From positions 1 to 64,000 of the forward strand of contig NZ_PVBR01000012.1 in assembly GCF_002980495.1 (NCBI RefSeq): DNA of 64,000 nt. The letters run 5' to 3'. Of this stretch, positions 28,931 through 45,758 are shown in pieces. The notes below the pieces were generated by a model that searched no databases, was not told the origin of the DNA, and saw only the letters and a list, made by a program, of their open reading frames with translations. The translations under genes were made by a program, and so were the position numbers. The first letter of the stretch is position 1, and the number at the start of each line of letters is the position of its first letter. Origin of the DNA: Phyllobacterium phragmitis. Lineage in GTDB: Bacteria; Pseudomonadota; Alphaproteobacteria; Rhizobiales; Rhizobiaceae.

Positions 28931-29887
28931 TTGTCCGAGAACAACCCCGCCACCGAAGCCGCCATCGTCGCCGATCCCGCATTCAGCCTTTCGACCGCCG
29001 CCGAACTTGGCGCCAGGGCGAATGGCGCGGAGCTGGTCAATGTCGTGCGCACGGACGAACTGACCGGCCTGCCCGCAAGCGTGCCCGCACTGCTCATTCG
29101 CGGCGACAATCCGCATATCAGGAGCGTGGATGCGATACTGGAGGAGCACCGCCTCTTCCCCGCCCGCAAGTCCGGCATCGCCACGGCCCAGACGCTCGAA
29201 TCGTTCATCGGGCTCACGAACCGTCACAAGATCGAAGACAGCGTCGTCTTCGCCAATACCGACTGGATCAAGCCCAGCCTGACGACCGTCATCGATTATC
29301 ACGAGAACACGAGCGGCGGCAAAGCCGCTTTTGGCAAACACAGGGTCCACTATGCCTTCCCGCTTTCCGAGGAATGGAAGGCATGGGTCAAGCTCAACAG
29401 CGCCACGATGACCCAGGAGGATTTCGCGGTATTCCTTGAAGAGCATGTGTTCGAACTGTCGGCGCCCGAGGATGGCGAGAAGCTTCGCTACGAACGCGAA
29501 TTCGCCACCACGATCGCCACGCCGGCCCAGCTCGTCGAACTCTCGCGCGGCCTGCAGGTCAACGTCGCCGCGAAGGTCAAGAACGCCTCGACGCTGCAGA
29601 CCGGCGAAGGCCAGATCATCTGGGAAGAGGAGCATCAGGGTTCGGACGGCAAGCCGATCAAGGTGCCCGGCCTCTTCATCCTGTCCGTCGCCCCGTTCTT
29701 CATGGGCGAGAAGGTTCGCGTGCCGGTCCGCCTGCGCTATCGCGTGAAGAGCGGCTCGATCGTCTGGTTCTACCAGATCTTCCGGCCCGACCAGATCATC
29801 AACGAGCGGGTCCGCACCGACCTCTTCGATGTGAAGGACAAGACCAGCCTTCCCGCTTTCGAGGGCTCACCCGAGATGCTCGCATGA
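28931..29887 (+). CDS. DUF2303 family protein (YfdQ-like)
   Basis: The 318-residue protein has the DUF2303 pattern: SVDAILEEHRLFPARKSG, TLESFIGLTNRHKIEDSVVFAN, VIDYHENTSG, and a C-terminal beta-rich domain with PGLFILSVAPFFMGEKV and VWFYQIFRPDQII. These proteins are widespread in temperate phages, near recombination or replication genes, and have no established activity. The start codon is TTG at 28931, with AAGGAGA well placed upstream. The stop overlaps the clamp gene ATG. Confidence 0.82.
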   Translation: MSENNPATEAAIVADPAFSLSTAAELGARANGAELVNVVRTDELTGLPASVPALLIRGDNPHIRSVDAILEEHRLFPARKSGIATAQTLESFIGLTNRHKIEDSVVFANTDWIKPSLTTVIDYHENTSGGKAAFGKHRVHYAFPLSEEWKAWVKLNSATMTQEDFAVFLEEHVFELSAPEDGEKLRYEREFATTIATPAQLVELSRGLQVNVAAKVKNASTLQTGEGQIIWEEEHQGSDGKPIKVPGLFILSVAPFFMGEKVRVPVRLRYRVKSGSIVWFYQIFRPDQIINERVRTDLFDVKDKTSLPAFEGSPEMLA

Positions 29888-31020
29888 CGGGCGCTCTTTT
29901 TCATCTGCCGCGGGAAGCTCTGCTTCCCGCCCTGGCCGCCGTGAATCGCGCCGTGGCGAAGCGCAACACGATCCCGCTTTTGTCCAATGTGCTGCTTTCG
30001 CATGACGACGGCGCGCTGACGATCACGGGCACCGACCTCGATGTCGAGATCAAAGCCCGTGTGGACGCGGAGGGCATCGCGCCCTTCCAGGCATTCACAC
30101 TGCCGTCTGCGCTGCTTCACGACGCCATGCGCAAGCTGCCGGATGGCGCGGATATCAGCTTTACCGGCGATCCGAACGGCGCATCCATGACGATCGCGTC
30201 CGGCCGGGCGCGCTTCCGGCTGGCCATCCTGCCGGCATCCGACTTTCCGACGATCTCCGCCGGAGAGCTCTCCCATCGCTTTTCCCTGTCCGAAAGGACT
30301 TTTGCCGCGATCATCGCGACCACGGCTTTCGCGATCTCGACCGAGGAGACGCGTTATTATCTGAACGGCATCCATCTGCATCAGGATGGTGAGAAACTCG
30401 CCGCCGTCGCGACTGACGGGCACCGTCTGGCGCTCATGCGGCTATCACTGCCGGATGGCGGAGCGGGAATGCCACCCATCATCCTGCCAAGGCGGACGGT
30501 GTTACTGCTTGCAACGCTCCTGGGCGACAAGGAGGCGATCGACGTTGCCCTTTCAGACAACAAGATCCTGTTCAGCCTGCCAGGCGGCGTGACGATCACC
30601 AGCAAGCTGGTCGACGGCACCTATCCCGATTACCAGCGTGTCATCCCGCCCGCTAACGCCAATCGGTTCAAGGTCAGCATCGAGCCGCTGGCAAAGGCGC
30701 TCGATCGCGTCCTGACCCTTTCAAGCGACAACGGGCGCGCCTGCAGCTTCGACTTCGGCGACGACGCGCTCAACCTGATCGTCATCAATCCGGATCAGGG
30801 CGAGGCCAACGACCAGGTCGACATTGAACGCATCGAGGGCGAACCGGTCAAGATCGGCTTCAACAGCCGCTACTGCCTCGACATGCTCAATGCCGCGGGC
30901 GGCGCCGAACTGATCTTCGAACTCGGCGCCCCGGGCGATCCCTCACGGATCATCCCGGCCGGGCAGGCGGACGGCGCCGCCACCGAGACGATGTTCGTCC
31001 TGATGCCGATGCGGATCTAG
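29884..31020 (+). CDS. Phage-encoded DNA polymerase III beta clamp homologue
   Basis: The 378-residue protein has all three clamp domains: ALAAVNRAVAKRNTIPLLSNVLLS, ITGTDLDVEI (domain 1), LNGIHLHQDGEKLAAVATDGHRLALMRL (domain 2), TSKLVDGTYPDYQRVIP (domain 2/3), and the C-terminal FVLMPMRI, which matches the conserved VMPMRL end. Clamps encircle DNA and tether polymerases and other partners at the replication fork. Bacterial phages of this type usually borrow the host clamp, so a phage copy suggests replication takeover or immunity to a host clamp block. Possible retention of clamp-binding grooves needs structural comparison. Confidence 0.88.
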   Translation: MTGALFHLPREALLPALAAVNRAVAKRNTIPLLSNVLLSHDDGALTITGTDLDVEIKARVDAEGIAPFQAFTLPSALLHDAMRKLPDGADISFTGDPNGASMTIASGRARFRLAILPASDFPTISAGELSHRFSLSERTFAAIIATTAFAISTEETRYYLNGIHLHQDGEKLAAVATDGHRLALMRLSLPDGGAGMPPIILPRRTVLLLATLLGDKEAIDVALSDNKILFSLPGGVTITSKLVDGTYPDYQRVIPPANANRFKVSIEPLAKALDRVLTLSSDNGRACSFDFGDDALNLIVINPDQGEANDQVDIERIEGEPVKIGFNSRYCLDMLNAAGGAELIFELGAPGDPSRIIPAGQADGAATETMFVLMPMRI

Positions 31021-35150: not shown

Positions 35151-35542
35151 TGAGCGACGAGATAGAACTCGACAGGCCAATTCGGCTCAGCAAGGCATGC
35201 AAGCTCTTCTTCGACGGAGCGCTGACACCCTCCGCCTTGCGAACAGAAGCCGCGAAGGGAAATCTTGAAATTACTCAGATTGCCCGTAAGGATTTCGTCA
35301 CGCGCCGCGCGATCGAGGAGATGATGACGAGATGCCGCAAAAAAGAAAGCCCCCACGCCTCTGGCTTAGAGCCGAAAAGCAGCGCGACGGCACAATCCGC
35401 AATACGTGGATCATCAAGGACGGCACCGCCAATATCCGCACAGGATGCCTTGAGGATCAAGTTGATGAAGCGGAGACAAAACTCGCAGAGTATCTCGCCG
35501 AAAAATATGAGGCCCCCCGCGGAGGTCGTTCATCTGAAATAA
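35150..35542 (+). CDS. Excisionase-like DNA-binding protein
   Basis: The 130-residue protein has RLSKACKLFFDGALTPSALRTEAAKGNLEITQIARKDFVTRRAIEEM, a MerR/excisionase-type winged helix, and a basic low-complexity tail. The ATG overlaps the ASCH stop (TGATG). Its last 211 bases overlap the integrase gene in another frame. It would direct excision with the integrase. Confidence 0.75.
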   Translation: MSDEIELDRPIRLSKACKLFFDGALTPSALRTEAAKGNLEITQIARKDFVTRRAIEEMMTRCRKKESPHASGLEPKSSATAQSAIRGSSRTAPPISAQDALRIKLMKRRQNSQSISPKNMRPPAEVVHLK

Positions 35543-36450
35543 AGGTCGGTGATGTCCTGACCATTTACCTCGACGAGAAGTCGGAATCGACATCCAGGCC
35601 AAAGGAAACCGAGCAGGCGATTTCCCGCCTTAACGAGTTTTTCGGCGACAAGCTTGTCTCGGAAATAAAGGGCAAGCTCTGCCGGGATTTTGCCGTCCAT
35701 CGCAAGACGCAATCGGGTTCCCGCCGCGACCTAGAAATTCTTCGTGCAGCCCTGCGTTATTATCACAAGGAATATGGGCTGGACGTTCTGCCCGCAGTGA
35801 CGCTGCCGGAAAAGAGCGTCCCGCGCGAGCGATACCTCACGCGATCGGAAGCGGCAGCACTCCTCTGGGCATGCATGGGATGGGAGAAGCACGGCGAAGG
35901 AAAGAGCGTCTTCTGGACCCGCCGACGCGATCAAAAGCGCATGCACCTTGCCAGGCTCGTCCTCATCGGCATTTACACCGGCACCCGCCTTGGCGCGATT
36001 CTCAACCTGCAATGGATGAGGAGCACCACGGGCGGCGTCGTTGATCTTGAGCGCAGCGTCATCTTCCGTCGAGCCGATGGCGAGCGTATGGCGCACAACA
36101 AGCGCAAGACCCCGGTCAAGATGGCGCGGCGCCTGGTGGCCCATGCCCACCGCTGGAAGCGGCTCGATGGCTGGTCTGACGAAAAGGCAGGGCTGCGCTA
36201 CGTGGTGAACTATCTCGGCGATCCCATCACCAAGCCCCACAAGGCGTTCCGAAGCGCGCGGGCAGCGGCCGGTCTGGGCGAGGACGTAACGCCCCACGTG
36301 CTGCGCCACACGCGCGGCACATGGCTCGCCCAGGCCGGCGTCCACTCCAGCGAGGCTGCCGCTTCGCTCGGGCTTACGGTCGAGGAGTATGAGCGCACAT
36401 ACCTGCATAATGATCCTGATTTCCAGCAAAACGCTGCCGATGCCTATTGA
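35332..36450 (+). CDS. int: Tyrosine-family phage integrase
   Basis: The 372-residue protein has an N-terminal arm-type and core-binding region and a catalytic domain with GIYTGTRLGAIL (catalytic Arg), HVLRHTRGTWLAQAG (H-x-x-R) and YERTYLHND (nucleophilic Tyr). It ends about 120 bases before the tRNA-Pro fragment, the normal position for an integrase acting at that attachment site. The gene starts inside the excisionase-like gene. Confidence 0.92.
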   Translation: MPQKRKPPRLWLRAEKQRDGTIRNTWIIKDGTANIRTGCLEDQVDEAETKLAEYLAEKYEAPRGGRSSEIKVGDVLTIYLDEKSESTSRPKETEQAISRLNEFFGDKLVSEIKGKLCRDFAVHRKTQSGSRRDLEILRAALRYYHKEYGLDVLPAVTLPEKSVPRERYLTRSEAAALLWACMGWEKHGEGKSVFWTRRRDQKRMHLARLVLIGIYTGTRLGAILNLQWMRSTTGGVVDLERSVIFRRADGERMAHNKRKTPVKMARRLVAHAHRWKRLDGWSDEKAGLRYVVNYLGDPITKPHKAFRSARAAAGLGEDVTPHVLRHTRGTWLAQAGVHSSEAAASLGLTVEEYERTYLHNDPDFQQNAADAY

Positions 36451-36567
36451 GAACAAACCCGGTGCAGCGCACTGATTGCGCACCGCTTCACGGAACATGG
36501 AGTGAACATACGTGACTAGACTGAACCAAATGGCACTGATTTCATTGAACTTTTTGCGCGCACACGC

Positions 36568-36614
36568 CGTTCGGGACGAGGGGGTCGGAGGTTCGAATCC
36601 TCTCACTCCGACCA
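36568..36614 (+). other. Attachment site: displaced 3' half of tRNA-Pro(CGG)
   Basis: The sequence from the anticodon loop onward (TTCGGGA at 36570-36576, anticodon CGG) through the CGAGG stem, variable loop, the T arm with GTTCGAATC (36591-36599) and the CACTCCG acceptor strand to CCA (36612-36614) matches a proline tRNA. The 5' half is absent: the preceding bases do not pair with the anticodon stem. This is what tyrosine-integrase insertion leaves at the distal prophage end. The reconstituted tRNA should lie at the other end, left of the window. Confidence 0.85.
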
Positions 36615-36671
36615 ATGTTTTCAATAGGTTAGCTATACGACTCCACCCCCACAGATACCTTACCCCACAGA

Positions 36672-36715
36672 ATGACGCTGAAAATTGGTTTCTTAACAGC
36701 GGTATTCGTGGCGGC
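36672..36715 (+). pseudogene. 5' fragment of a secreted nuclease-like gene split by a Mu-like element
   Basis: ATG at 36672 begins MTLKIGFLTAVFVA, a signal-peptide-like start. It is interrupted after 44 bases by the element end at 36716. Joining 36715 to 45536, which removes one GCGGC copy and the element, continues the frame as AALTTGAFSGSSCGRKICAL and then DGDT, the staphylococcal-nuclease-type start. Confidence 0.7.
36711..36715. repeat. Target-site duplication GCGGC, left copy
   Basis: Five bases directly before the element's TGTA end, repeated at 45531-45535 directly after its TACA end. Five-base duplications are typical of Mu-family transposition. Confidence 0.8.
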
Positions 36716-36841
36716 TGTAGCGCGCAAAATCGCGTGGCAGCGCGCGCAAGATCAGATGGCAACAAGTTTTTCTTTGTAAGCCTTTCCTCCATCCCATGGG
36801 GCGCTTGCGGAATCGAGCGTAAGGTGCACCTGAAGTTGCGT

Positions 36842-37609
36842 CTAGGCGACTCTCTTCCGCGCCTTCGATATACGATGCTCTTTGCGGTTCCCGAGATATT
36901 CCACATTCTGAGTATGGCGATAGGGATTGATCGGCTCGCCAATCGGATCGCCGTAATCCTTCAAAAGCTCTGTTGCTGCCCCATCGCGAGTGATCGTCGT
37001 AAGCTCGCAGACACCGCCTGCTGATGCGCCGAGCATCGGAACCTTGGTGCCCCATGTCGTTGTGTCGGGAACACCAGCAAGGCGGAAGGCCTCCATAAGC
37101 TCGACGCCTCGCAGTTCCAGGAACCGTTTATCTGATTGTGGAATTCCTTTGCTGAATGTGTGAGCTAACTCCGGCCCTAGGCGTGGACCGCCCGCCGCAA
37201 AGGACTGCTCACGGAAGCAGTATGGCGTCGGATCATCGGGATTTGTGCCTGCTACCAAAATGAAAAAACCGCGTGGTGGCGTGTAGCCGGCCACCAGCAA
37301 ATCAAAATGCGTGTCCTTTGCATCGAGGTCGGCGGTATTCTGTTCTTTCATGGTGCGAAATATCGCGGCCAGTCCTTCGATCGCAATCTCGACTGAACCG
37401 GACTTGTCGGCAATCTTCACACCGGTGCCTGCCAGTTTCTTTGTGATGGCATCATGCCCCCGGCCTGTGATCGCCAGCGGCAATGATTTTGCGCGAAAGA
37501 CCTTGCTTTCCACCTTGGCGAGATTGCCGTCCACGTCCCAAGATGCGCCGTCAGTCATGAGCCTCACGCAATCGGTATACTTTATAGCGACATAAACGCT
37601 CATATCCAT
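36842..37609 (-). CDS. Ntn-hydrolase-like phage protein, 255 residues
   Basis: The protein begins MSVYVAIKYTDCVRLMTDGASW after an initial MD and continues with SKVFRAKSLPLAITGRG and FDLLVAGYTPPRGFFILVAG, a pattern like the proteasome-fold (Ntn) proteins found beside tail genes in Mu-like rhizobial prophages. It lies eight bases after the tape measure gene and is the last gene before the element's left end. AAGGA precedes the ATG. Function unknown. Confidence 0.65.
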   Translation of the reverse strand: MDMSVYVAIKYTDCVRLMTDGASWDVDGNLAKVESKVFRAKSLPLAITGRGHDAITKKLAGTGVKIADKSGSVEIAIEGLAAIFRTMKEQNTADLDAKDTHFDLLVAGYTPPRGFFILVAGTNPDDPTPYCFREQSFAAGGPRLGPELAHTFSKGIPQSDKRFLELRGVELMEAFRLAGVPDTTTWGTKVPMLGASAGGVCELTTITRDGAATELLKDYGDPIGEPINPYRHTQNVEYLGNRKEHRISKARKRVA

Positions 37610-37616
37610 GTTTCCT

Positions 37617-39923
37617 TCAGGCTAGCGTGTCGCGGCAGGAAGCCGCCATCGTGTTTGAGAACGTCCGCTTGAGATCGTCCTTTAGGAAGTCGGTCGCGGC
37701 CTTTCCGATTCCGGCCAGGGCACCCTTCCAGTCACCACTGGTCAGGCTGTCAATTACAGAACCGATAGCGTCTTCACCAGCAGAGCGAAAGTTGCTCCAG
37801 GCATCGGTTTGGCGCTCAAGTACGTTTGTCAAATCGGACTGCTGTTTGGTCAGTTCTCGGATTTCCTGCGCCTCCCGGCTGCTCTGCCCCAAACCGCGCT
37901 GACGAATAAGTTGCTCGGCTTCCAACTGGGCGAGAACACGGGCGCGCACCTGTTCGCTCGCCCCTACTAAGCGCAGTTCCGCCTGCATCAGTTCTATGCG
38001 ATCGCTCTGAGAGCGAATATATTCTTGGGCGCTGGCGCGGCGTTCTTCCTTGGCAAGCGCCTCATAGCCTTCGACCGTCTGCGAAATGATCTTCAGGAGC
38101 CGCTGCTTTTCGTCACCCTCGGCTCGCGCAGCTGCCGTGATCAGCGGTCGCAATTCGCTCTCTGCGCGCAGATACTGCTCCGCGTCAGCCGCGCTGACCG
38201 TACCGGCCGCGATCGCGTCGTTGACCTTCGCCCGCGCTGCCGCCTCGGCTCGCATGTCGAGGATCTGCGCCGATGACTGCGCCATCGCCTCGGCCATGAC
38301 TTGATTACGGGCCTGACGAACGCGGTTCTCAGCCTCTGCCGCGTCGATCTCCATGCCGGAAAGCTGAATGCGCTCGCGCTGCGCGGTCAGTTCCGCACGC
38401 GTCAGCGGATCGCGAGCTGCCTGCAACTGGATATCCACGCGGGCGAGTTCGATCTGGCGCTGCTCCTGGGCAGTGATGCGGGCGAGCGCTTCTGCGCGTT
38501 GTCGATCGGCGTCCGATCGCTCATTGCCATCACCGGCATTGCCGCGAGCCGTGGCGTACTGATTTTCGACTTGTCGCCGATCGCTCAATTCGGGAGCGGC
38601 AATCTCCCGCAGACCGGACAAGGCTTCCTTGTAGTGGTCCATCCGCCGCGCCGCCGCCTCGACGGCATTCGCAGCGCGGATCGCTGGGGGTGATGTTTTT
38701 TCCAGAGACTCGGCGGCTTCCAGCCCGTTCTTTGCAACGCCAAGGAGCGCAAGGCCGGTTTTCAGGAGCTTTTCATTGTTCGGCTCAAGGCTCCAGCGGT
38801 CCTCGACCATCTTCCTGAACCCGAGGATATCGGGCTGGCCTTCCTTGGCCGTCATACGCAAGTGCTCAAGCGCCTCGGCAAAGGCGTTGTAAGATGGATC
38901 AACGAACCAAACGTCGGCACCATTAGTCCGCACATAAGCTTCACTCGCCACCGCATGCGAACTGTTAACGATGGCCTCGTCCAGTTCCTTGCGTGTCGAT
39001 GCGGCGGCGATACGCGAACCAGCCATTGCGCGGCGATAATACTCGTCCGCCCCGGTACCGGCATATTGGTAGGCATCGCGGAGCTTGCGCACCTGTTCTT
39101 CATGTTCACTGGTGATTTCGCTGACCTTACGGGTCTTGGTGAACATGCCGTCCAGGGCATAGCTGGCGGCGTAACCGACTGCCGTGATGCCAACCATCAG
39201 CAAGGTGGTCGGGGTGATCAGTGAGGTCATCCCCTGCAACAAAGCCGGGAAGACCTCGCCCAATCCGCGGTTTCCCATGACCTGGGCGACCTGACCGGTC
39301 TGTTGCACCATGATCATGAAAGGACTCTGCCCGGAAGCCAACATGGTCACGATATCGTTGGCCTGATAGCTCAGGATCGCCATTTCATGTGCCGCGAGTT
39401 TCGTCGATGTCGCGGCCGCAACGCCGCCCGACTGAATGGCCGCGACCTGCGCGGAATATGCAGCCTGCGCCTTTGCGATCGAGGCAACGCGTTGCTCCTC
39501 CGTGATCGCTCCAATCTTCTCGGCTGCATTCAGTTCGGCGAGCAGCGACAGATGCCGCTGCTGAGCGTCCATCAGCGGCTTGTATTGCGCCCGAACCTGA
39601 TCCAACTCCCGGCCATAAGCCTGCAACTCGCGCTGGCGCTCGACCATGGAACTATCGGTCATGCCCGAACGAATGCCGAGGAAGCCGGAGACTTTCGAAC
39701 GCAAATCGTTTTCCGCCAGCGCCTGACCGCGAGTGGCTTCCGTCGCGCGTCGGGATGACGCGGCGGCCTGGTCGTTGCTGGCGGCAAGCCCCTTCATGGT
39801 GGCGGCGGAGGCTGCTGCCGTGCTGCTGAGGCCGGCGACCGCAGCTTTCCCGTCCGTGGTCGCGCTTTTCAGACCACTGGCATCGCCGGTGATAATCATC
39901 GACAAACGCATCGGTGATGTCAT
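37617..39923 (-). CDS. Phage tail length tape measure protein, C-terminally shortened
   Basis: The 768-residue protein has a long Ala/Gln/Glu-rich helical body, an N-terminal MRLSMIITGDASGLKSATTD segment, HEMAILSYQANDIVTMLASGQSP near residues 180-200 and a hydrophobic patch LITPTTLLMVGITAVGYAASY. These fit lambda/Mu-like tape measure proteins. The C-terminal DAIGSVIDSLTSGDWKGAL segment is normal, but the final residues NTMAASCRDTLA look like an abrupt out-of-frame end, so the tail end of the gene is probably deleted. Confidence 0.8.
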   Translation of the reverse strand: MTSPMRLSMIITGDASGLKSATTDGKAAVAGLSSTAAASAATMKGLAASNDQAAASSRRATEATRGQALAENDLRSKVSGFLGIRSGMTDSSMVERQRELQAYGRELDQVRAQYKPLMDAQQRHLSLLAELNAAEKIGAITEEQRVASIAKAQAAYSAQVAAIQSGGVAAATSTKLAAHEMAILSYQANDIVTMLASGQSPFMIMVQQTGQVAQVMGNRGLGEVFPALLQGMTSLITPTTLLMVGITAVGYAASYALDGMFTKTRKVSEITSEHEEQVRKLRDAYQYAGTGADEYYRRAMAGSRIAAASTRKELDEAIVNSSHAVASEAYVRTNGADVWFVDPSYNAFAEALEHLRMTAKEGQPDILGFRKMVEDRWSLEPNNEKLLKTGLALLGVAKNGLEAAESLEKTSPPAIRAANAVEAAARRMDHYKEALSGLREIAAPELSDRRQVENQYATARGNAGDGNERSDADRQRAEALARITAQEQRQIELARVDIQLQAARDPLTRAELTAQRERIQLSGMEIDAAEAENRVRQARNQVMAEAMAQSSAQILDMRAEAAARAKVNDAIAAGTVSAADAEQYLRAESELRPLITAAARAEGDEKQRLLKIISQTVEGYEALAKEERRASAQEYIRSQSDRIELMQAELRLVGASEQVRARVLAQLEAEQLIRQRGLGQSSREAQEIRELTKQQSDLTNVLERQTDAWSNFRSAGEDAIGSVIDSLTSGDWKGALAGIGKAATDFLKDDLKRTFSNTMAASCRDTLA

Positions 39924-40060
39924 CTGAATATCCTAGCCATCGTACTTGCCGGTATAGCCATGGTCAGGCTTTTGGAGAAAGGCGCGCGGCAATGGAGAAG
40001 CAATCATTGCCGCGCTGGTCATAGAGCCTTGCCACCCTATGACCGTAGGAGATACGGGTT

Positions 40061-40996
40061 CTATGCTGCTTTGGCCCAAGCCGTGACGATGGGCTTTGCG
40101 GTGTTGGCCCATTCGTTCTGGACCGAAACAGCCGTTGTGCTTCCATCACCATTGTCAGCGATAACGACGCGAGTCCCGTTGTTCAGAAGCCGCATAGCCG
40201 CACCCTCAAGGGCTGGAGGAACAACAAGAACGGTTGGCTTTATCCCGAGCAGGCGTCCTTCATCGCCTGTCAGGTTCATCATGTATTGCCGAGCAGCTTC
40301 ATAGTTTTCGGCATTCAGTTCGGCCTTGGATGCGAAGGCAAGCTGCCATAATCCGAAGCCAGCATTCGAACGAGCGCGGATGCCGTAGATGTAATCATCT
40401 TTGAAGAACACATTGCTGTCGTTGTCATTATCGAGAGCAGTCAATTTCGGAGCAATACGTTCCTGATAGATCATCGGTTTAACGGCACGGCTGGTGTCCA
40501 GTAAATACCATGCAGGTCCGTTCCCGGCCTGCATATTCGAGACAGTGGCAGTTTCACCCTCGCCATTCCTCACCGGATGATCAGCGTCGAAGAAATTCTT
40601 CCCGTCATAGCACTTTGTGGCAAAGCCCTGGGCCAGCAATGAAAAGACCAGTTCGTCAGGTTGTTCTTTTGAGGCACGTCCAAGATCGGTAAAAAATGGC
40701 GCATAAACACCTATATTGTCGTCCTCAATGTCCGTCCGCTTGACCGAAATCGTATCTTCGAACAGCTTGTTGGTGACAGCGAAACCATGCGCTTCCAGAC
40801 TCTTGATTTCACGGTCGCCTATCCATTCGCGAAGCTTTGGAACTTGACCGAGCCAGCCGTAGCGCTCGCTGCTATTGGTTGACGGCACAATCATGGCTAT
40901 TTCGCCATAAGCGCTCCCCGCGCCTTCGAACCCAATGTTAAAATTCGCCTTGAAGCCCGTAAAAATATCCCCGAGGCTTTGTTTGTTAATGATCAT
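40061..40996 (-). CDS. Mu-like major capsid protein (gpT family)
   Basis: The 311-residue protein has the gpT pattern: MIINKQSLGDIFTGFKANFN at the start, WLGQVPKLREWIGDREIKSL, KRTDIEDDNIGVYAPFFTDLGRAS, CYDGKNFFDADHPV and the C-terminal EWANTAKPIVTAW. It forms the phage head shell. It follows the protease/scaffold gene as in Mu. Between it and the tape measure the usual tail genes are missing, which marks an internal deletion. Confidence 0.9.
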   Translation of the reverse strand: MIINKQSLGDIFTGFKANFNIGFEGAGSAYGEIAMIVPSTNSSERYGWLGQVPKLREWIGDREIKSLEAHGFAVTNKLFEDTISVKRTDIEDDNIGVYAPFFTDLGRASKEQPDELVFSLLAQGFATKCYDGKNFFDADHPVRNGEGETATVSNMQAGNGPAWYLLDTSRAVKPMIYQERIAPKLTALDNDNDSNVFFKDDYIYGIRARSNAGFGLWQLAFASKAELNAENYEAARQYMMNLTGDEGRLLGIKPTVLVVPPALEGAAMRLLNNGTRVVIADNGDGSTTAVSVQNEWANTAKPIVTAWAKAA

Positions 40997-41184
40997 ACTA
41001 ACGGCTCCGATGAGTTAGGTGCGGTCGAACTGGCATCGAAGGTTTTGCGGACTTACCAATTGACTGCGGTTAAAATCAAATTTGAAGGTCATTTGAAGGC
41101 CACTGGCGCGTTTTCTCCCTCCGGCCTTGTTCTCCCCCTTGGCATCAATGCCGTTTCGCCTTTCCGTGGGCCTGATGGCGATCT

Positions 41185-42183
41185 TCAGCTTTCCCGTGCA
41201 TTTGCAAATTGTTCGGCGCTGAGACCGAGCTTGGCACATATCGCAGCCTGCCCTTCGTCCAGCTTGCTCGCGGTCTGACTGCGGCTATGCGCCGATGTCT
41301 GCTGTCCAAACAGACCGATGAAGGCAGGACCGGTCTTTTCCACGAAACTGTCAAAGGCGGGCTTGTTTACCTTGCAGAGCGAAACAGCCCAGTCCTTCAT
41401 GAATGGAGCGACCACGCCGCGCCGAATATGGTCCGCAACGTGCGCTTCTGCGGCCGTTTCAGTCACGCCCTGGCGAAGTTGGTTTGCCTCGGCTACAACA
41501 CGTTCGAAATCACCGATCGGAACAAACTTCGAAGGATCGGGAGTTGCGCTATTTGCGGAGACAGGTGGCGTCTCACCCGTGATGGATGCGATTTCAAATG
41601 CCAGATCGACAAGCGGCTGCAACTTCTGCAAGACGGCCTTCTCATCCGACCCATCTGGAAGGCCTAGCAACTTGGCCGCGCTCGCGACCTTCTCGACATA
41701 CGCTTCCACTTTCATAACTACCTCCGAGCGCGCGAGCGCTGTCAATTGATCCAAGTTGGGAGAGTTGGTCAGGCCTGCGTTATCGATATGAAGAACGCTG
41801 CCCGATTGCGTGTGATGAAAAACCGGAGAGAGGTAACGATACTCGCGACTGGCGAGGTGTTTTGCGGCGGCTTCCGTCCATTCAACAAGCCCCCAGACAC
41901 CATCTGATCGAGCTTCCATACCGACTATCCAACCCGCAGCCGGCGCGGGCTTGCCGTTGTTGGCGGCGTTTATGCTTTGGTGCTCGTAATCGATAACGAT
42001 CTGTTTTTTACCGTGATAGGAACGCGTCCGTTTCACGATCTGCGCCGGATCATTCGCGAGATACGGGCCGCGTCCGTCAATGCCGTTGAATTTGCCTGCG
42101 GGCAGCAGGTGCACCCATGATCTAGCCTCATCTTTTGAAGCCAATATCTCGATGCGGTGCATTCCAACTCTTGCGCTCATCAA
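41185..42183 (-). CDS. Mu-like phage protease/scaffold protein (gpI family)
   Basis: The N-terminal half has the gpI protease pattern: RIEILASKDEARSWVHLLPAG, KQIVIDYEHQSINAANNGKPAPAAGWI, REYRYLSPVF and ALTNSP-like AGLTNSPNLDQL. The C-terminal part is helical and probably the scaffold; in Mu it is also made from an internal start (gpZ). It processes the head before DNA packaging. It is ATGA-coupled to the Mor-like gene. Confidence 0.88.
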   Translation of the reverse strand: MMSARVGMHRIEILASKDEARSWVHLLPAGKFNGIDGRGPYLANDPAQIVKRTRSYHGKKQIVIDYEHQSINAANNGKPAPAAGWIVGMEARSDGVWGLVEWTEAAAKHLASREYRYLSPVFHHTQSGSVLHIDNAGLTNSPNLDQLTALARSEVVMKVEAYVEKVASAAKLLGLPDGSDEKAVLQKLQPLVDLAFEIASITGETPPVSANSATPDPSKFVPIGDFERVVAEANQLRQGVTETAAEAHVADHIRRGVVAPFMKDWAVSLCKVNKPAFDSFVEKTGPAFIGLFGQQTSAHSRSQTASKLDEGQAAICAKLGLSAEQFANARES

Positions 42184-42608
42184 CCTTTGCTCCGCGCGAA
42201 ACGCTGGAGATCATCTTTTATTTTGCCGGTTCTTTCGCGCAATTGTTCGTCGCTCATGAGATACGAACGGACAGACGTGTCTGTTACGCGCAGGATGCGA
42301 GCGATTTCACTGTTGGAAAGGTTGCAGGAGCGGAAATATCGAGCGAGAAATTTCTTGGCCACCGGGATGCGATAAATGCTAACGCCCTCGAAGCGATCAT
42401 ATAAAGCCTGTGTCGCTTCTATTCCGATGAGGCGCACAATCTGATTACCAGGCGTGGCCTTGCCCGAAAAAGAGAGCGCGCTCCCGCCGAAATTGATCAG
42501 GAACGTTACGGCAACCTCAAGCCCCAAAGCTTCAATAAAGGGAATAATATGGGCTTCAATTCGCCCGGAAATTTCTTGGTTTTGGGAGTTTCGCCATGTG
42601 TGCTGCAT
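42180..42608 (-). CDS. Mor-like phage transcription activator
   Basis: The 142-residue protein has VAVTFLINFGGSALSFSG, IYRIPVAKKFLARYFRSCNLSNSEIARILRVTDTSVRSYLM and a basic C-terminus. A dimerisation half followed by an HTH with VRSYL recognition helix is the Mor/C layout of Mu-like phages, where the protein switches on middle or late genes. Its stop overlaps the protease ATG. Confidence 0.7.
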   Translation of the reverse strand: MQHTWRNSQNQEISGRIEAHIIPFIEALGLEVAVTFLINFGGSALSFSGKATPGNQIVRLIGIEATQALYDRFEGVSIYRIPVAKKFLARYFRSCNLSNSEIARILRVTDTSVRSYLMSDEQLRERTGKIKDDLQRFARSKG

Positions 42609-42709
42609 GACCGAATTTAGATCATAACCAAGGTTGGCGATCTATTTCCTAATCCTATGCAATAAGGGTTTTTGGCCACCGCACGTTCGTTGGCAGTTCA
42701 ATACATCAA

Positions 42710-42742
42710 AAGGCCACGGGAAGAAAGCTTGCCCATGGCCTT
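42710..42742 (-). terminator. Terminator downstream of the Mu-type HTH gene
   Basis: AAGGCCA pairs with TGGCCTT around a partly paired CGGG/CCC interior. On the minus strand the hairpin is followed by CCTTTT, so transcription of the 43,332-42,763 gene should stop here, separating early from morphogenesis genes. Confidence 0.6.
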
Positions 42743-42762
42743 CGATTTTGATCCTGCCCGCC

Positions 42763-43332
42763 CTAGTTGGCAAGGCCCAATCTAACGAGCACTTTTGCCG
42801 CTTCCTCGACACTTGGTAACGCGATCTCCGGCGGTAGCCGTTCCGGCAGAATGTCCCATGCTTCTGCGAGATCGCCGTTCGTTTCGGTTTTCAAAATGCG
42901 GACGAGCGGCAGGACCCATGGCGGGGCCGTGTTCTCCGCTTGCGCTTCTTCCACCCGCTCCACGTCAGGCAGGTTCGGCAAGATTGAAACAACCGCGTCG
43001 ATCGCCGGCAACTCCAGAATACGCACTATCAATTCGTCGAAGGCGCGGGCTGGCAAGCTTGAGACGTGATACGCGCAAAACCATTTACCTTTGTGTCTCG
43101 CCTTGCGTCTGCGCCAACTATCCTTGTTTGCTCTGCGGCTAATTGCTTCCGGCGTTCGAGGCAAGCCGGGTAATGCCTTGGCTGCCAGATCGGCGGCGGT
43201 GAACCATTCCTGTATGCGACTGCCGTCGCGAACGATATGCAGCAATAAGGTTTCGAGATATTTCACGCGTCGTTGATTGTAAGCCCATTCGTCAGCAGCG
43301 ACCGATACCGTAAGGATAAGGCTATCTGACAT
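42763..43332 (-). CDS. Mu-type HTH DNA-binding protein (repressor or transposase-N-like)
   Basis: Residues 40-110 contain EWFTAADLAAKALPGLPRTPEAISRRANKDSWRRRKARHKGKWFCAYHVSSLPARAF, the winged-helix domain shared by Mu repressor and MuA N-termini. No DDE catalytic core follows, and the remaining 80 residues are unrelated. It may be the element's repressor or the truncated remains of a transposase. Start chosen at ATG 43332 (MSDSLILTV); it overlaps the previous gene by 11 bases. Confidence 0.65.
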   Translation of the reverse strand: MSDSLILTVSVAADEWAYNQRRVKYLETLLLHIVRDGSRIQEWFTAADLAAKALPGLPRTPEAISRRANKDSWRRRKARHKGKWFCAYHVSSLPARAFDELIVRILELPAIDAVVSILPNLPDVERVEEAQAENTAPPWVLPLVRILKTETNGDLAEAWDILPERLPPEIALPSVEEAAKVLVRLGLAN

Positions 43333-43861
43333 GAGGCCACCTCTTTTCGAGCCAAAGCGTGGTTTGCTGCTTTTGAAGAATCCATCGAATATAAGCTGCG
43401 AAAACTCGGACAGAGGGCATGGGAGCAGTTTGAGTGCCTTCGGCATTCAATGAAACGGCCTTACCGAATTTTGCGATGCAAACCGCCCGGATCGGGGCCG
43501 CTTTACTTGTCGGAAACGTCAGAGAGTGCTCGATCCGTATCATCAACGTTATTTCACGATGCAACTCGCCGTTTTCTGCAATTTCGAGAATCTGCATCCC
43601 TCGAACTGGTTGCCAGTCCCTCCAGCCTCGACGTTTTTTCCGCCGCGCTATAGCGTCTTGAGAAAATAGACTGACATGGTACTCCATTGTCGTACCCTTT
43701 CCCGCTGCCTTTCGGCATAGGGTCGGATGCGCCGACAGCCAGTGACGCTGGATATAAAGACGCACCGCCTGATAACTACGAGACATGCCCAACAACTGCG
43801 CTTCATGGACTTGCCGCGCCGTGAGCCATTCCGTTTGGTGTGGGTTATATGATGTCGGCAT
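43322..43861 (-). CDS. Second Mu-type DNA-binding protein, 179 residues
   Basis: The N-terminal half, WLTARQVHEAQLLGMSRSYQAVRLYIQRHW and EYHVSLFSQDAIARRKKRRGW, resembles the end-binding domain of Mu-family transposases. The rest (to 179) does not match a DDE core and looks like a different domain or decayed sequence. It probably recognises the element ends or operators; catalytic transposition is not expected from this protein alone. Confidence 0.5.
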   Translation of the reverse strand: MPTSYNPHQTEWLTARQVHEAQLLGMSRSYQAVRLYIQRHWLSAHPTLCRKAAGKGTTMEYHVSLFSQDAIARRKKRRGWRDWQPVRGMQILEIAENGELHREITLMIRIEHSLTFPTSKAAPIRAVCIAKFGKAVSLNAEGTQTAPMPSVRVFAAYIRWILQKQQTTLWLEKRWPHVR

Positions 43862-43883
43862 AGTCTTTACCCCATAAACAAAA

Positions 43884-43909
43884 GAGGGCGCGGGATATGA
43901 CCGCGCCTC
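43884..43909 (-). terminator. Terminator after the 234-codon gene
   Basis: GAGGGCGCGG and CCGCGCCTC pair with one bulged G around GATATGA. On the minus strand the hairpin is followed by TTTTGTTT, so it ends the 44,598-43,918 transcript. Confidence 0.65.
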
Positions 43910-43917
43910 AAGCCGCT

Positions 43918-44598
43918 CTATTCGTTTACTACTCTTTTGAGGTCGGATTGATCCGTCTCATTTGAAAGCTCTGTTCCGCTACTACCGAGCAACTGTGCAA
44001 TCACCTTTTCGACGGTCGCGGTTTTCAGATTGAGCGTCTGGGCGATGGCGCTGGCGTCCACGCCTTCCTTGATCTTCGCCGCGATGGACTGATCGCGCGC
44101 GTTCTCGTTAAGGACTGGCTCCTGTCCGTCAGTCTCTGCATCGGACCGCGCGCTATATGCGTTCGGCAGGGCAACATGGAGCAACACGCTCCGTACGTTG
44201 TCGGGTGAAATATCGTGGATTTCGCCGACACGCTCCAATTCCGCTCTGTCGTTGATGAATTGCAGAAGAAAAGGCCTCACCATTTCATAGGCGCTCAACC
44301 CCTTGTTCTTGACGTATTCCGCCGCGTATTCTGCAGCCTGCTCATGTCTTTCCAGCCGTTTTTCATCTTCGGCGGGGCTGCGCGACTCTTTGACCATACA
44401 GCGATGAATAGTTTGCAGGTCATTCACGATGCGGTCGGGGATACGGCAGATGTCGTGACTAAGATGCTTTAATCCGCCATTTTCCCAAAGGGCCGCATGG
44501 AGAAGGTGCGTAAAACCGCGCAACTCTCCATAGGTATCTTCCAGTGTGGAAAGCGCGTCGTCCATGTCGTCGAGTTCATAGGTGACTTTGATAGCCAT
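43918..44598 (-). CDS. Uncharacterised Mu-like element protein, 226 residues
   Basis: A highly acidic helical protein (DDMDDALSTLEDTYGELRG) with a C-terminal HTH-like region IAAKIKEGVDASAIAQTLNLKTATVEKVIAQLL. ATG 44598 has GGAGG seven bases upstream; an alternative ATG at 44622 lacks one. It is the first well-supported gene after the control region at the element's right end, so a regulatory role is likely. No family is recognised. Confidence 0.6.
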   Translation of the reverse strand: MAIKVTYELDDMDDALSTLEDTYGELRGFTHLLHAALWENGGLKHLSHDICRIPDRIVNDLQTIHRCMVKESRSPAEDEKRLERHEQAAEYAAEYVKNKGLSAYEMVRPFLLQFINDRAELERVGEIHDISPDNVRSVLLHVALPNAYSARSDAETDGQEPVLNENARDQSIAAKIKEGVDASAIAQTLNLKTATVEKVIAQLLGSSGTELSNETDQSDLKRVVNE

Positions 44599-44626
44599 GT
44601 CGGCCTCCAGCATGCTTTTCAAGGCA

Positions 44627-44848
44627 TCATTCCTGCGGGCGGCGCAGAAGCCGGGAGTTGAAAACCGTGCTGGACGGCAACATGACCTTTAGGCTTTCGC
44701 CCTGGACATTCGCCATGTCCTCCCGGCCGCATCGGCAGCAAACGAAAAATTTTCGCTTGCTGAAATCTTGTGCGACCACGCCCCGGAGACAGGGCATAAA
44801 AAATGCGCCGTTCAGGCGCGGATTGATTGGAAAATAAAAGAACGACAT
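44627..44848 (-). CDS. Possible small Cys-containing protein, 73 residues
   Basis: A frame from 44848 encodes MSFFYFPINPRLNGAFFMPC and a later FVCCRCGRED, which could bind zinc. It overlaps two of the hairpins in this region and has no clear ribosome site, so it may be noncoding. Confidence 0.25.
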   Translation of the reverse strand: MSFFYFPINPRLNGAFFMPCLRGVVAQDFSKRKFFVCCRCGREDMANVQGESLKVMLPSSTVFNSRLLRRPQE

Positions 44849-45157
44849 TTTTTCGTTCTCTATCTCTCGCACCGGCCATGGTGGCGCATACCACCAGCAA
44901 GGAGTTTTCAAGCTCCGCATATACCGTAACGGCGATTGCCTGTTTCTGCAAGCCATCAACACAGAGAAAAATCAGAAGGAAAAAATTTCCTTCTGATTTT
45001 TGAGATGGCAATTTTTTCCGCTTCAAACAGAAGATGGAGTTTGCGGGTTATCTCTCCAGCGCCAGCAACGAAAGTCTTTGCCGTCGCTCGCCAGCCATCT
45101 ACCGTCCGCCTAGCAGAAAAATTGCCGTTTGCCTAAACGAAATTCTTTCGTTTAGGC
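44736..45157. repeat. Cluster of short-loop perfect or near-perfect hairpins
   Basis: Four inverted repeats lie in the right-end control region. 44736-44762: 13-bp arms, one mismatch, 1-base loop. 44839-44859: AGAACGA/TCGTTCT. 44968-45000: 15-bp perfect arms, 3-base loop. 45131-45157: GCCTAAACGAAA/TTTCGTTTAGGC, 3-base loop. Three contain CGAAA/TTTCG. They are not followed by clear T-tracts in one direction, so they are not simple terminators. Confidence 0.7.
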
Positions 45158-45205
45158 ACCTTTCCAAGCGGGGCAGCAACACTCTGATTTGGCAGTCCGA
45201 AATTT

Positions 45206-45319
45206 CCCACTTTCGCAACGCTTTATTTTCAATTATTATAAGTAAATCATTGAAATCAATATATTAAATTAAAGTGGAAAGTGATTTTAAAAGTATCGTT
45301 TCAGCGCTCCACTTTCGAA
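45206..45319. promoter_or_regulatory. Repeated CCACTTTC motifs in the element's AT-rich control region
   Basis: CCCACTTTCGC (45206-45216), AAGTGGAAAGTG (45272-45283, containing the motif inverted) and CTCCACTTTCGAA (45307-45319) lie in the most AT-rich part of the window. Spacing of about 35-65 bp and alternating orientation suggest operators for the element's repressor or transposase enhancer sites. The stretch 44,849-45,530 contains no convincing gene. Confidence 0.5.
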
Positions 45320-45393
45320 TTGTCATTTTTAATGATTTCAAGCACTTAGCACTTTGATACAGCGTAAAATTATAGCCAAAACAGGCGGTTTAT

Positions 45394-45530
45394 GCCAACT
45401 GATCTTGCGCGCGGCTTGAATGGGCTTTCCGCTCGATTTCGTTCTAATTCATTGAATTGACGTTGTTTTCGCCCGATCCCGGCCAATCCCACCTAATCCC
45501 GATTAATGCCATCTGATATTGCGGGTTACA
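45394..45530 (-). repeat. Right terminal region of the Mu-like element
   Basis: Two transposase-site-like repeats, TGCCAACTGATCTTGCGCG (45394-45412) and TGCCATCTGATATTGCGGG (45506-45524), the latter ending at TTACA (45530). Three AATCCC units lie between them. The same motif occurs inverted at the left end (36716-36765). Confidence 0.75.
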
Positions 45531-45535
45531 GCGGC
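45531..45535. repeat. Target-site duplication GCGGC, right copy
   Basis: Matches 36711-36715 across the element. Confidence 0.8.
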
Positions 45536-45758
45536 GTTGACGACAGGCGCGTTTTCCGGCTCTTCCTGTGGCAGGAAGATATGCGCGCTTGACGGCGATA
45601 CGGTCGTCATTGAACGGGAGCATATTCGCATCGCGAATATGCTCCCATCTATAGCGCCGGGCGCAAATAAAGGTGGCGGACCGTCCCCGGTGCGTGAATG
45701 CGAAGCCCCTTTGAACGAAAGGGCTTTCAAAGCCCCGACTTTTTCCAACTCGCTTTGA
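45536..45758 (+). pseudogene. 3' fragment of the interrupted nuclease-like gene, itself decayed
   Basis: In frame with the fragment at 36672-36715, it continues through GRKICALDGDTVVIEREHIR and then IANM, typical of the first strands of secreted staphylococcal-nuclease-fold proteins. After IANM the expected DAPE motif is absent and the frame runs into unrelated residues to a stop at 45758. The gene was therefore also truncated downstream, near a perfect hairpin at 45616-45646. Confidence 0.65.
45616..45646. repeat. Perfect 14-bp hairpin with 3-base loop
   Basis: GGGAGCATATTCGC, loop ATC, GCGAATATGCTCCC. It coincides with the point where the nuclease-like frame loses similarity. A 7-1-7 palindrome GGGCTTTCAAAGCCC follows at 45721-45735. 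Confidence 0.7.

Follow-up and report, generated by a model that had tools for sequence, protein, structure and literature searches.

The window analysed here is a 64,000-nucleotide stretch of the Phyllobacterium phragmitis genome (assembly GCF_002980495.1, contig NZ_PVBR01000012.1, positions 1 to 64,000). It contains an 8,815-bp element at 36716-45530 that combines Mu-type transposon ends with a small set of virion genes. We conclude that this element probably belongs to a family of transposable phage satellites. A broader proposal, which we hold tentatively and at somewhat less than even confidence, is that such elements form a polyphyletic and previously unrecognised group mobilised in trans by Mu-like helper phages. 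Most members would carry the parts that set the dimensions of a virion, namely the shell, the protease/scaffold and usually the tail ruler, with the ruler repeatedly swapped to suit the tail of the local helper and the shell remaining the element's own. The initial annotation had left two choices, a deletion remnant or a non-autonomous satellite. The evidence from the family favours the satellite over a single broken phage, although this particular copy may be inactive.

A Mu-type element with intact ends

The element is flanked by two identical copies of GCGGC, at 36711-36715 on the left and 45531-45535 on the right. It starts with TGTAGCGCGCAA at 36716 and ends with TTGCGGGTTACA at 45530; the flanking duplication and the TGTA...TACA termini reported in the initial annotation are thus borne out by the sequence. 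The Mu right-type end (36716-36761) has TGTA followed by two transposase-like sites 22 bp apart, at 36722 and 36744. The Mu left-type end (45393-45530) has an inner site at 45393, an outer site at 45507, 114 bp away, and the terminus TACA. Sites related to GCGCAAGATCAGATGGCA with at most four mismatches are found at these four positions, on the plus strand at the left and the minus strand at the right, and nowhere else in the window, in agreement with the earlier description of inverted repeat sites doubled at each end.

A scan of all 64 kb required TG...CA termini separated by 5-15 kb, the same 5 bp on either flank and an inverted repeat scoring 18/26 or more; 36716-45530 was the sole pair. 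The same scan of 20 Markov shuffles of the window gave zero pairs in 18 and a total of three pairs in the remaining two. The terminal repeat of the element scores 18/26, and the maximum in random trials (n=150, on the window and five other stretches) was 17. With TG...CA termini, inverted putative transposase sites and a 5-bp duplication, the element appears to be a transposable element of the Mu type. Site pairs with the same motif and the same 22-bp spacing were also found in three other genomes (G083, G182 and G179), beside or within Mu-like phages, and the adjacent attR1 and attR2 sites of RcapMu are comparable to the 22-bp pair in the window. A 35-bp palindrome near the right end (44967-45001), 91% identical to its own reverse complement, is a possible operator or terminator.

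A reduced gene set in which no transposase, portal or terminase was found

The nine minus-strand open reading frames (ORFs) of the element were scanned against PHROGs and Pfam. In the order of transcription they encode proteins of 135, 234 and 179 amino acids (aa), a MuA/repressor-type DNA-binding protein, Mor, gpI, gpT, a tape measure and a 255-aa protein. Three of these are virion genes: the head maturation protease/scaffold gpI (41185-42183; PF10123, E=3.2e-68), the major capsid protein gpT (40061-40996; PF10124, E=1.8e-121) and a 768-aa tape measure protein (37617-39923; PHROG and Pfam tape measure families), whose ORF end closely precedes the AGGAA-ATG start of the next gene. The Mor-like late transcription activator (42180-42608; phrog_836, E=1e-13) lies directly ahead of gpI.

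The standalone DNA-binding protein (42763-43332; PF02316, E=5.6e-9) is ~189 aa long with a start placed by alignment, the ORF being open from 43446. Foldseek searches with a predicted model (227 aa, mean pLDDT 70) returned the DNA-binding domain of Mu transposase (1tns, E 0.0012) and the Mu repressor (1qpm, E 0.011) as best matches, with a probability of 1.00. The 179-aa protein (43322-43861) is related to a 304-aa counterpart, with a Mu DNA-binding domain, in the related locus L138. The 234-aa protein (43918-44622) is related to proteins near the DNA-binding protein gene in other elements; it matches a 269-aa protein of locus L101 (E=8e-18) and also L103 and L184, with a mean column identity of 29% in the alignment. 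The 135-aa ORF (44619-45026) has no Pfam match and weak relatives in genome G096 and loci L138, L182 and L184, and may include a non-coding leader. The 255-aa protein (36842-37609), encoded by the last gene, is possible cargo. No family was assigned to it: it has no PHROG match at E<=0.001 and no Pfam or PADLOC match at E<=0.01, and a pattern scan of IMG/VR recovered only the window's own sequence.

Among the nine ORFs, the PHROGs and Pfam scans found no MuA catalytic domain, MuB, terminase, portal, tube or tail tip; the only part of MuA present is the N-terminal Mu DNA-binding domain. The initial annotation had recognised the capsid, protease and tape measure and noted that a DDE core was missing, and these scans agree. 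As far as these scans show, the element lacks what defines an autonomous Mu-type phage: the DDE core and MuB, terminase, portal, and tail genes other than the tape measure. No integrase or primase was found among the nine ORFs either, and the element fits neither the cf-PICI nor the P4-like/PICI definition. All element genes are open, and nonsynonymous divergence (dN) is well below synonymous divergence (dS) for gpT and the DNA-binding protein, although dS is saturated (gpI could not be computed).

Recurrence in related genomes

Element DNA was compared with 201 related genomes, and tblastn of the element proteins on the resulting loci led to L101 and L103. In all, 13 loci were considered: the window, L101 (genome G096), L138 (G360), L103 (G126), L200 (G336), L182-L185, L036, L102, L104 and L037. 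The genome of the window itself is G000, a 139-contig assembly. Four loci besides the window are bounded by 5-bp duplications of their own: L101 (8,139 bp, TGTAG, terminal repeat 19/26), L138 (9,505 bp, CCAGA, 20/26), L103 (6,042 bp, TGTAA, 19/26) and L200 (8,723 bp, GCATA, 18/26). The end motif TGTAGCGCGCAA / TGTA(A/C)CCCGCAA is common to the window, L101 and L138. L103 and L200 have another end motif with TTGCACA-like sites, and the outer ten bases of L103 are those of RcapMu. Whether such ends recur with other insertions had been posed as a test of the initial annotation; in G096 and G360 they do, with the same motif, other 5-bp duplications and comparable genes.

A search for gpT in 397 genomes of the order found 38 places in 34 genomes. 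Four of them are small elements (the window, L102, L104 and L138), and 29 have portal and/or MuF genes within the fetched stretch. Three others are short contig ends with neck/adaptor genes, and two have no other recognised phage genes. The DNA-binding protein was found in nine of the same genomes; it is full-length in four (G000, G360, G126 and G336) and part of MuA-size frames of 764-909 aa in the other five. Among 385 genomes of the class, 13 had matches, which are G000 and 12 in frames of 658-862 aa. In IMG/VR the same search gave 19 loci: the window's own, four standalone (L182-L185) and 14 MuA N-termini. Relatives that carry MuA or are unbounded come from Phyllobacterium, Bauldia, G182, G150 and IMG/VR. 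A near-identity DNA search and a protein search with the DNA-binding protein found no match in 50,697 phage and 72,556 plasmid records, a set from which the records nearest to the window's genome were possibly omitted. A reduced gene set that recurs and has a lineage of its own is the mark of a satellite, and such a set is present here, with a composition that varies between elements.

One IMG/VR record, UViG_2834431274_000003 (L052, L100), contains 100%-identical copies of seven genes, from the 255-aa gene through the 179-aa gene. This 43.8-kb provirus prediction stops at the start of the 179-aa ORF and so apparently truncates the element and fuses it with its neighbour.

Three architectures with Mor next to the capsid genes

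The elements fall into three architectures. In type A (the window, L138 and L101), the genes lie on one strand and encode the DNA-binding protein, Mor, the protease and capsid in either order, and the tape measure; in L101 the capsid gene is ahead of the protease gene. Type B is divergent, with the DNA-binding protein gene pointing one way and Mor, capsid and protease the other (L103, L200, L182, L185 and L183). L184 resembles type B, but its Mor-like match lies elsewhere and not before the capsid gene. The standalone DNA-binding protein is typical of types A and B. Type C has MuA, usually MuB, GemA, Mor, gpT and a tape measure (L102, L104 and L037); L036, a type C locus with MuA, has gpI and gpT and a DUF2971/PDC-S31 gene.

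Mor lies directly ahead of the capsid/protease genes in the window, L101, L138, L036, L103, L200, L182, L185 and, with a gap of 548 bp, L183, and directly ahead of gpT in L102, L104 and L037. The distance between Mor and the protease gene is 9.0 kb in DMS3 and 8.5 kb in RcapMu. In the window, L036, L138 and L104 the Mor ORF overlaps the following capsid-module ORF by 4 bp, as judged from mechanically called starts.

Individual elements add further genes. L103 and L200 encode a DUF1804 protein, whose gene in RcapMu lies just ahead of the large terminase gene. This protein may be a small terminase, although databases label DUF1804 as DNA-binding. L185 encodes a tail chaperone as well as a protein resembling a tape measure that scores below the Pfam cut-off. 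L183 has different capsid and protease families (phrog_10 and phrog_80) and a 600-aa tape measure. Neck and tail-fibre genes lie near L182 and a baseplate-hub gene near L184, where the extent of the element is unsure. Possible cargo defence genes are located at the distal ends of two elements, a DUF2971/PDC-S31 gene in L036 (11180-12046) and an AbiJ-like gene, below the family cut-off, in L200 (2586-3476).

Capsid lineages distinct from full-length phages

Three capsid types are found after Mor: gpT, the RcapMu type and, in L183 only, the phrog_10 type. No phmmer match between them is better than E=0.15, although they could share a deep fold. A tree of 32 gpT proteins, seven from small elements and 25 from full-length phages, groups the window, L036, L102, L104, L037 and L138 with a support of 92/87, and the window with L036 at 100/99. 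When the labels were shuffled, none of 500 trials was as clustered as observed. The RcapMu-type capsids of L103, L200, L182, L184 and L185 are 49-61% identical to each other and 41-43% identical to that of RcapMu. Their identity to the capsids of two full-length phages of G336 is at most 28%.

Fit to local phages

The element of G360 and a full-length phage in the same genome have inner end sites that are identical over 21 bp and outer sites that are similar, with a spacing of 116-118 bp that resembles the layout of the left-type end in the window. The other end of this phage was not found on the fetched part of the contig, which reaches the contig start. Signals compatible with a helper are matched by sequence in G360 and not in G096, and the window's genome has only a truncated relative with one site. 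G126 contains remnants of an RcapMu-like phage with MuA in two overlapping frames. Of the seven element-bearing genomes searched, four (G096, G336, G360 and G182) have a Mu-type portal, compared with 16/130 in the order (P=0.006), which fits the helper reading.

We ranked 19 gathered phage tape measures and 26 full-length gpT proteins by their similarity to those of the elements; for L037 and the IMG/VR loci no local phage was available for such a ranking. The tape measure of the local phage is ranked first for the window (the C2 remnant described below), for L138 and L102 (same genome in all three cases) and for L104 (same genus). The local gpT is ranked 17 for L138, 19 for L102, 6 for L104 and 20 for L101 out of the 26, and gpT of the elements is 42-48% identical to that of the local phage. 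These rankings suggest a tendency for the tail ruler, but not the shell, to match that of the local phage.

The phage related to the window's tape measure is located on contig C2 of G000 (L003, ~337100-352400). It is a truncated Mu-like siphophage that has a single end site and adjoins a host FMN oxidoreductase gene, and it contains a 269-aa gene (a Dam-type methylase, by eye), tail genes, a 1220-aa tape measure, and tube and neck genes. Its end site carries one mismatch. The window tape measure and the N-terminal 768 aa of the 1220-aa protein share 85% identity, and the genes are 91% identical over 1,953 bp. The C2 phage was rejected as an intact helper, as it ends at the neck gene beside the host FMN oxidoreductase gene. 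We also rejected the view that a shortened tape measure is a constant feature of satellites: that of L102 is internally shorter than its phage counterpart (595 vs 844 aa) and that of L138 slightly shorter (1070 vs 1166 aa), but that of L104 is not (659 vs 630 aa).

Proposed mechanism and alternatives

In the mechanism we propose, the element would be silent until a Mu-like helper phage becomes active. MuA and MuB of the helper would then replicate and transpose the element in trans through the element ends, with the element's own DNA-binding protein possibly sitting on the enhancer/operator region. Mor would drive the late genes of the element and perhaps those of the helper as well; such a satellite-borne late activator is reminiscent of P4 delta. 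The head shell would be built from the element's own capsid protein with its own protease/scaffold, the portal, terminase, tube and tail tip would be taken from the helper, and the element would supply a tape measure that fits the helper's tail. The MuA-bearing relatives would transpose unaided and borrow virion parts only.

A number of observations weigh against this proposal. In the window's genome, although it is a 139-contig assembly, we detected neither a MuA C-terminal domain (PF09299) nor a Mu-type portal, and hence no complete helper for this copy. The window tape measure, unlike those of L138, L102 and L104, is without the C-terminal 450 aa of its closest relative, and so may be non-functional. 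This copy may no longer be active and may be stranded or dead, in a family that is otherwise live. The phage co-resident with L101 in G096 showed none of these end sites in the scanned stretches L203 and L235, and its tape measure, from the same genome, is ranked only fourth for L101. In the portal comparison, the seven element-bearing genomes were not a random sample, at least three of them (G000, G126 and G182) are counted among the 130 as well, and, besides G000, a portal was not found in G126 or G150. The candidate end pair of L104 (8,968 bp, TGTGT, 14/26) is inside the random range, and no end pair above that range was found for L036, L102, L037, L182, L183, L184 or L185. In the gpT tree, the placement of all seven element proteins, including that of L101, on one side of a branch is weak (58/16). 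The kit is also not constant: a tape measure was not found in L103, L200 or L036, nor a protease in L104 or L037, and L102 has only a 193-aa piece of the protease.

Some of these observations would fit a decaying Mu-like prophage, once full-length, from which internal deletions removed ~30 kb, similar remnants having arisen independently elsewhere. The genes absent from the window element are those that deletion would remove, the kit differs between elements, the tape measure is without its C-terminus, no helper was found in the genome, and the same genome has a second, clearly truncated Mu-like phage on C2. This explanation is disfavoured already at the level of the family: a comparable selection of genes recurs in combination with three capsid types and in differing gene orders, the capsid lineages are separate from those of full-length phages, and the standalone DNA-binding protein typical of types A and B is full-length in only 4/397 genomes of the order. 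In addition, the window element has intact ends and open genes, with the low dN relative to (saturated) dS given above. We therefore regard a deletion remnant as unlikely.

The element could also be an anti-phage island whose capsid, protease and tape measure spoil the assembly of incoming Mu-like phages, the ends serving merely to spread it. Decoys made of structural proteins are conceivable, and interference with tail assembly is described as a known defence strategy in the part of the source cited here (PMC11364771). The tape measures match those of local phages, and two relatives have putative defence genes (the 288-aa PDC-S31 protein of L036 and the AbiJ-like protein of L200, below the cut-off). 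However, complete genes for both capsid and protease, retained from a lineage remote from the local phage (gpT is 42-48% identical), would suit the making of a shell better than poisoning, and we consider such an island rather improbable. It is very unlikely that the elements, or at least the MuA-bearing ones, are fixed chromosomal genes with a host role such as an SOS-linked one: all four such loci (L036, L102, L104 and L037) sit immediately upstream of lexA, but their distribution is sporadic, with this MuA type in 2/327 genomes of the order, and the window, L101, L138, L103 and L200 are bounded by 5-bp duplications of their own.

Relation to known mobile elements

The element is close to the transposable siphoviruses of the D3112/DMS3 and RcapMu type. 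It shares with them the end structure, the Mor, gpI, gpT and tape measure families, and a regulator predicted to have the MuA/repressor DNA-binding fold. These phages are 36-39 kb long, whereas the element is 8.8 kb, has Mor directly before the capsid genes and, as far as was found, has none of their MuA catalytic part, MuB, terminase, portal, tube and tail tip.

Among satellites, the cited passages describe cf-PICIs as small elements with their own capsid protein and protease that use helper tails and encode a portal, connectors and both terminase subunits (PMC10690885); own capsids, portal and terminases with helper tails are likewise described in PMC11389934. The window element differs in having a tape measure and Mu-type ends, by which it would move through transposition of the Mu type, with no portal, terminase or integrase found among its nine ORFs. 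It resembles P4-like elements, PICIs, PLE and PICMI in its small size and presumed dependence on a helper, and differs from them in its Mu-type ends and in having no integrase or primase among the nine ORFs. The passages cited from two sources do not describe P4-like elements, PICIs, cf-PICIs, PLE or PICMI as transposing in the manner of Mu (PMC10690885, PMC11389934). Miniature inverted-repeat transposable elements (MITEs) and mini-Mu also have ends without a transposase gene, but the window element retains a kit of virion genes; MITEs are said to contain no protein genes in the part cited (PMC11389934). A 16.8-kb satellite that uses the helper's capsids is described in part of another source (PMC4936722). 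No Mu-like or transposable satellite is described among the matches listed from the open-licence library searched, and the mini-Mu element is probably a parasite of Mu-like phages that has apparently not been described.

If this is true, a satellite that spreads by its helper's transposition could insert almost anywhere and would therefore escape surveys that rely on integrases and attachment sites. The family would also serve as a natural experiment that shows which virion components a parasite has to provide for itself. An exchanged ruler and a retained shell would make head-tail compatibility testable.

Target site and genomic neighbourhoods

The initial annotation placed the insertion in a secreted nuclease-like gene. 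The right flank is indeed nuclease: 45532-45640, on the plus strand, shares 97% identity across 109 bp with a paralogue on contig C29 of the same genome (G000:C29:47205) that is uninterrupted and has 181 open codons. The left flank at 36560-36635 is 95% identical to the C29 sequence, in which just 90 bp and no element lie between the parts that match the two flanks. The 80 bp adjoining the left end, which include the proposed signal peptide, do not match the paralogue, so this comparison leaves the secretion signal without a counterpart. The uninterrupted site sought as a check was found as this C29 copy, a paralogue in the same genome rather than a sister strain. Nuclease homology in the window stops after 45640, so the target is now a gene fragment.

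An integrase gene followed by a tRNA 3' fragment (~36580-36614) is located just to the left of the element (35332-36614), and on C29 an intact-looking tRNA (anticodon CGG, by eye) precedes the uninterrupted nuclease gene. One end of an integrase-type prophage is likely to lie within the window. A DnaN (DNA polymerase III beta clamp) gene with all three domains lies inside this apparent prophage region at 29884-31020. The element of G096, like that of the window, is within ~1 kb of a phage-type integrase gene (L101, 7103-8431).

The lexA genes directly downstream of the MuA-bearing elements encode LexA and S24 domains (L036 2309-3187, L104 3020-3721, L102 15824-16588 and L037 3224-3970). Targeting, vertical inheritance and SOS coupling are all candidate causes of this neighbourhood. 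A comEC-type competence gene is located beside lexA in L036, L102 and L104. The other flank differs, with moeA in L104, Ku/LigD ~1.2 kb further on in L037 and an usher-type fimbrial cluster in L036.

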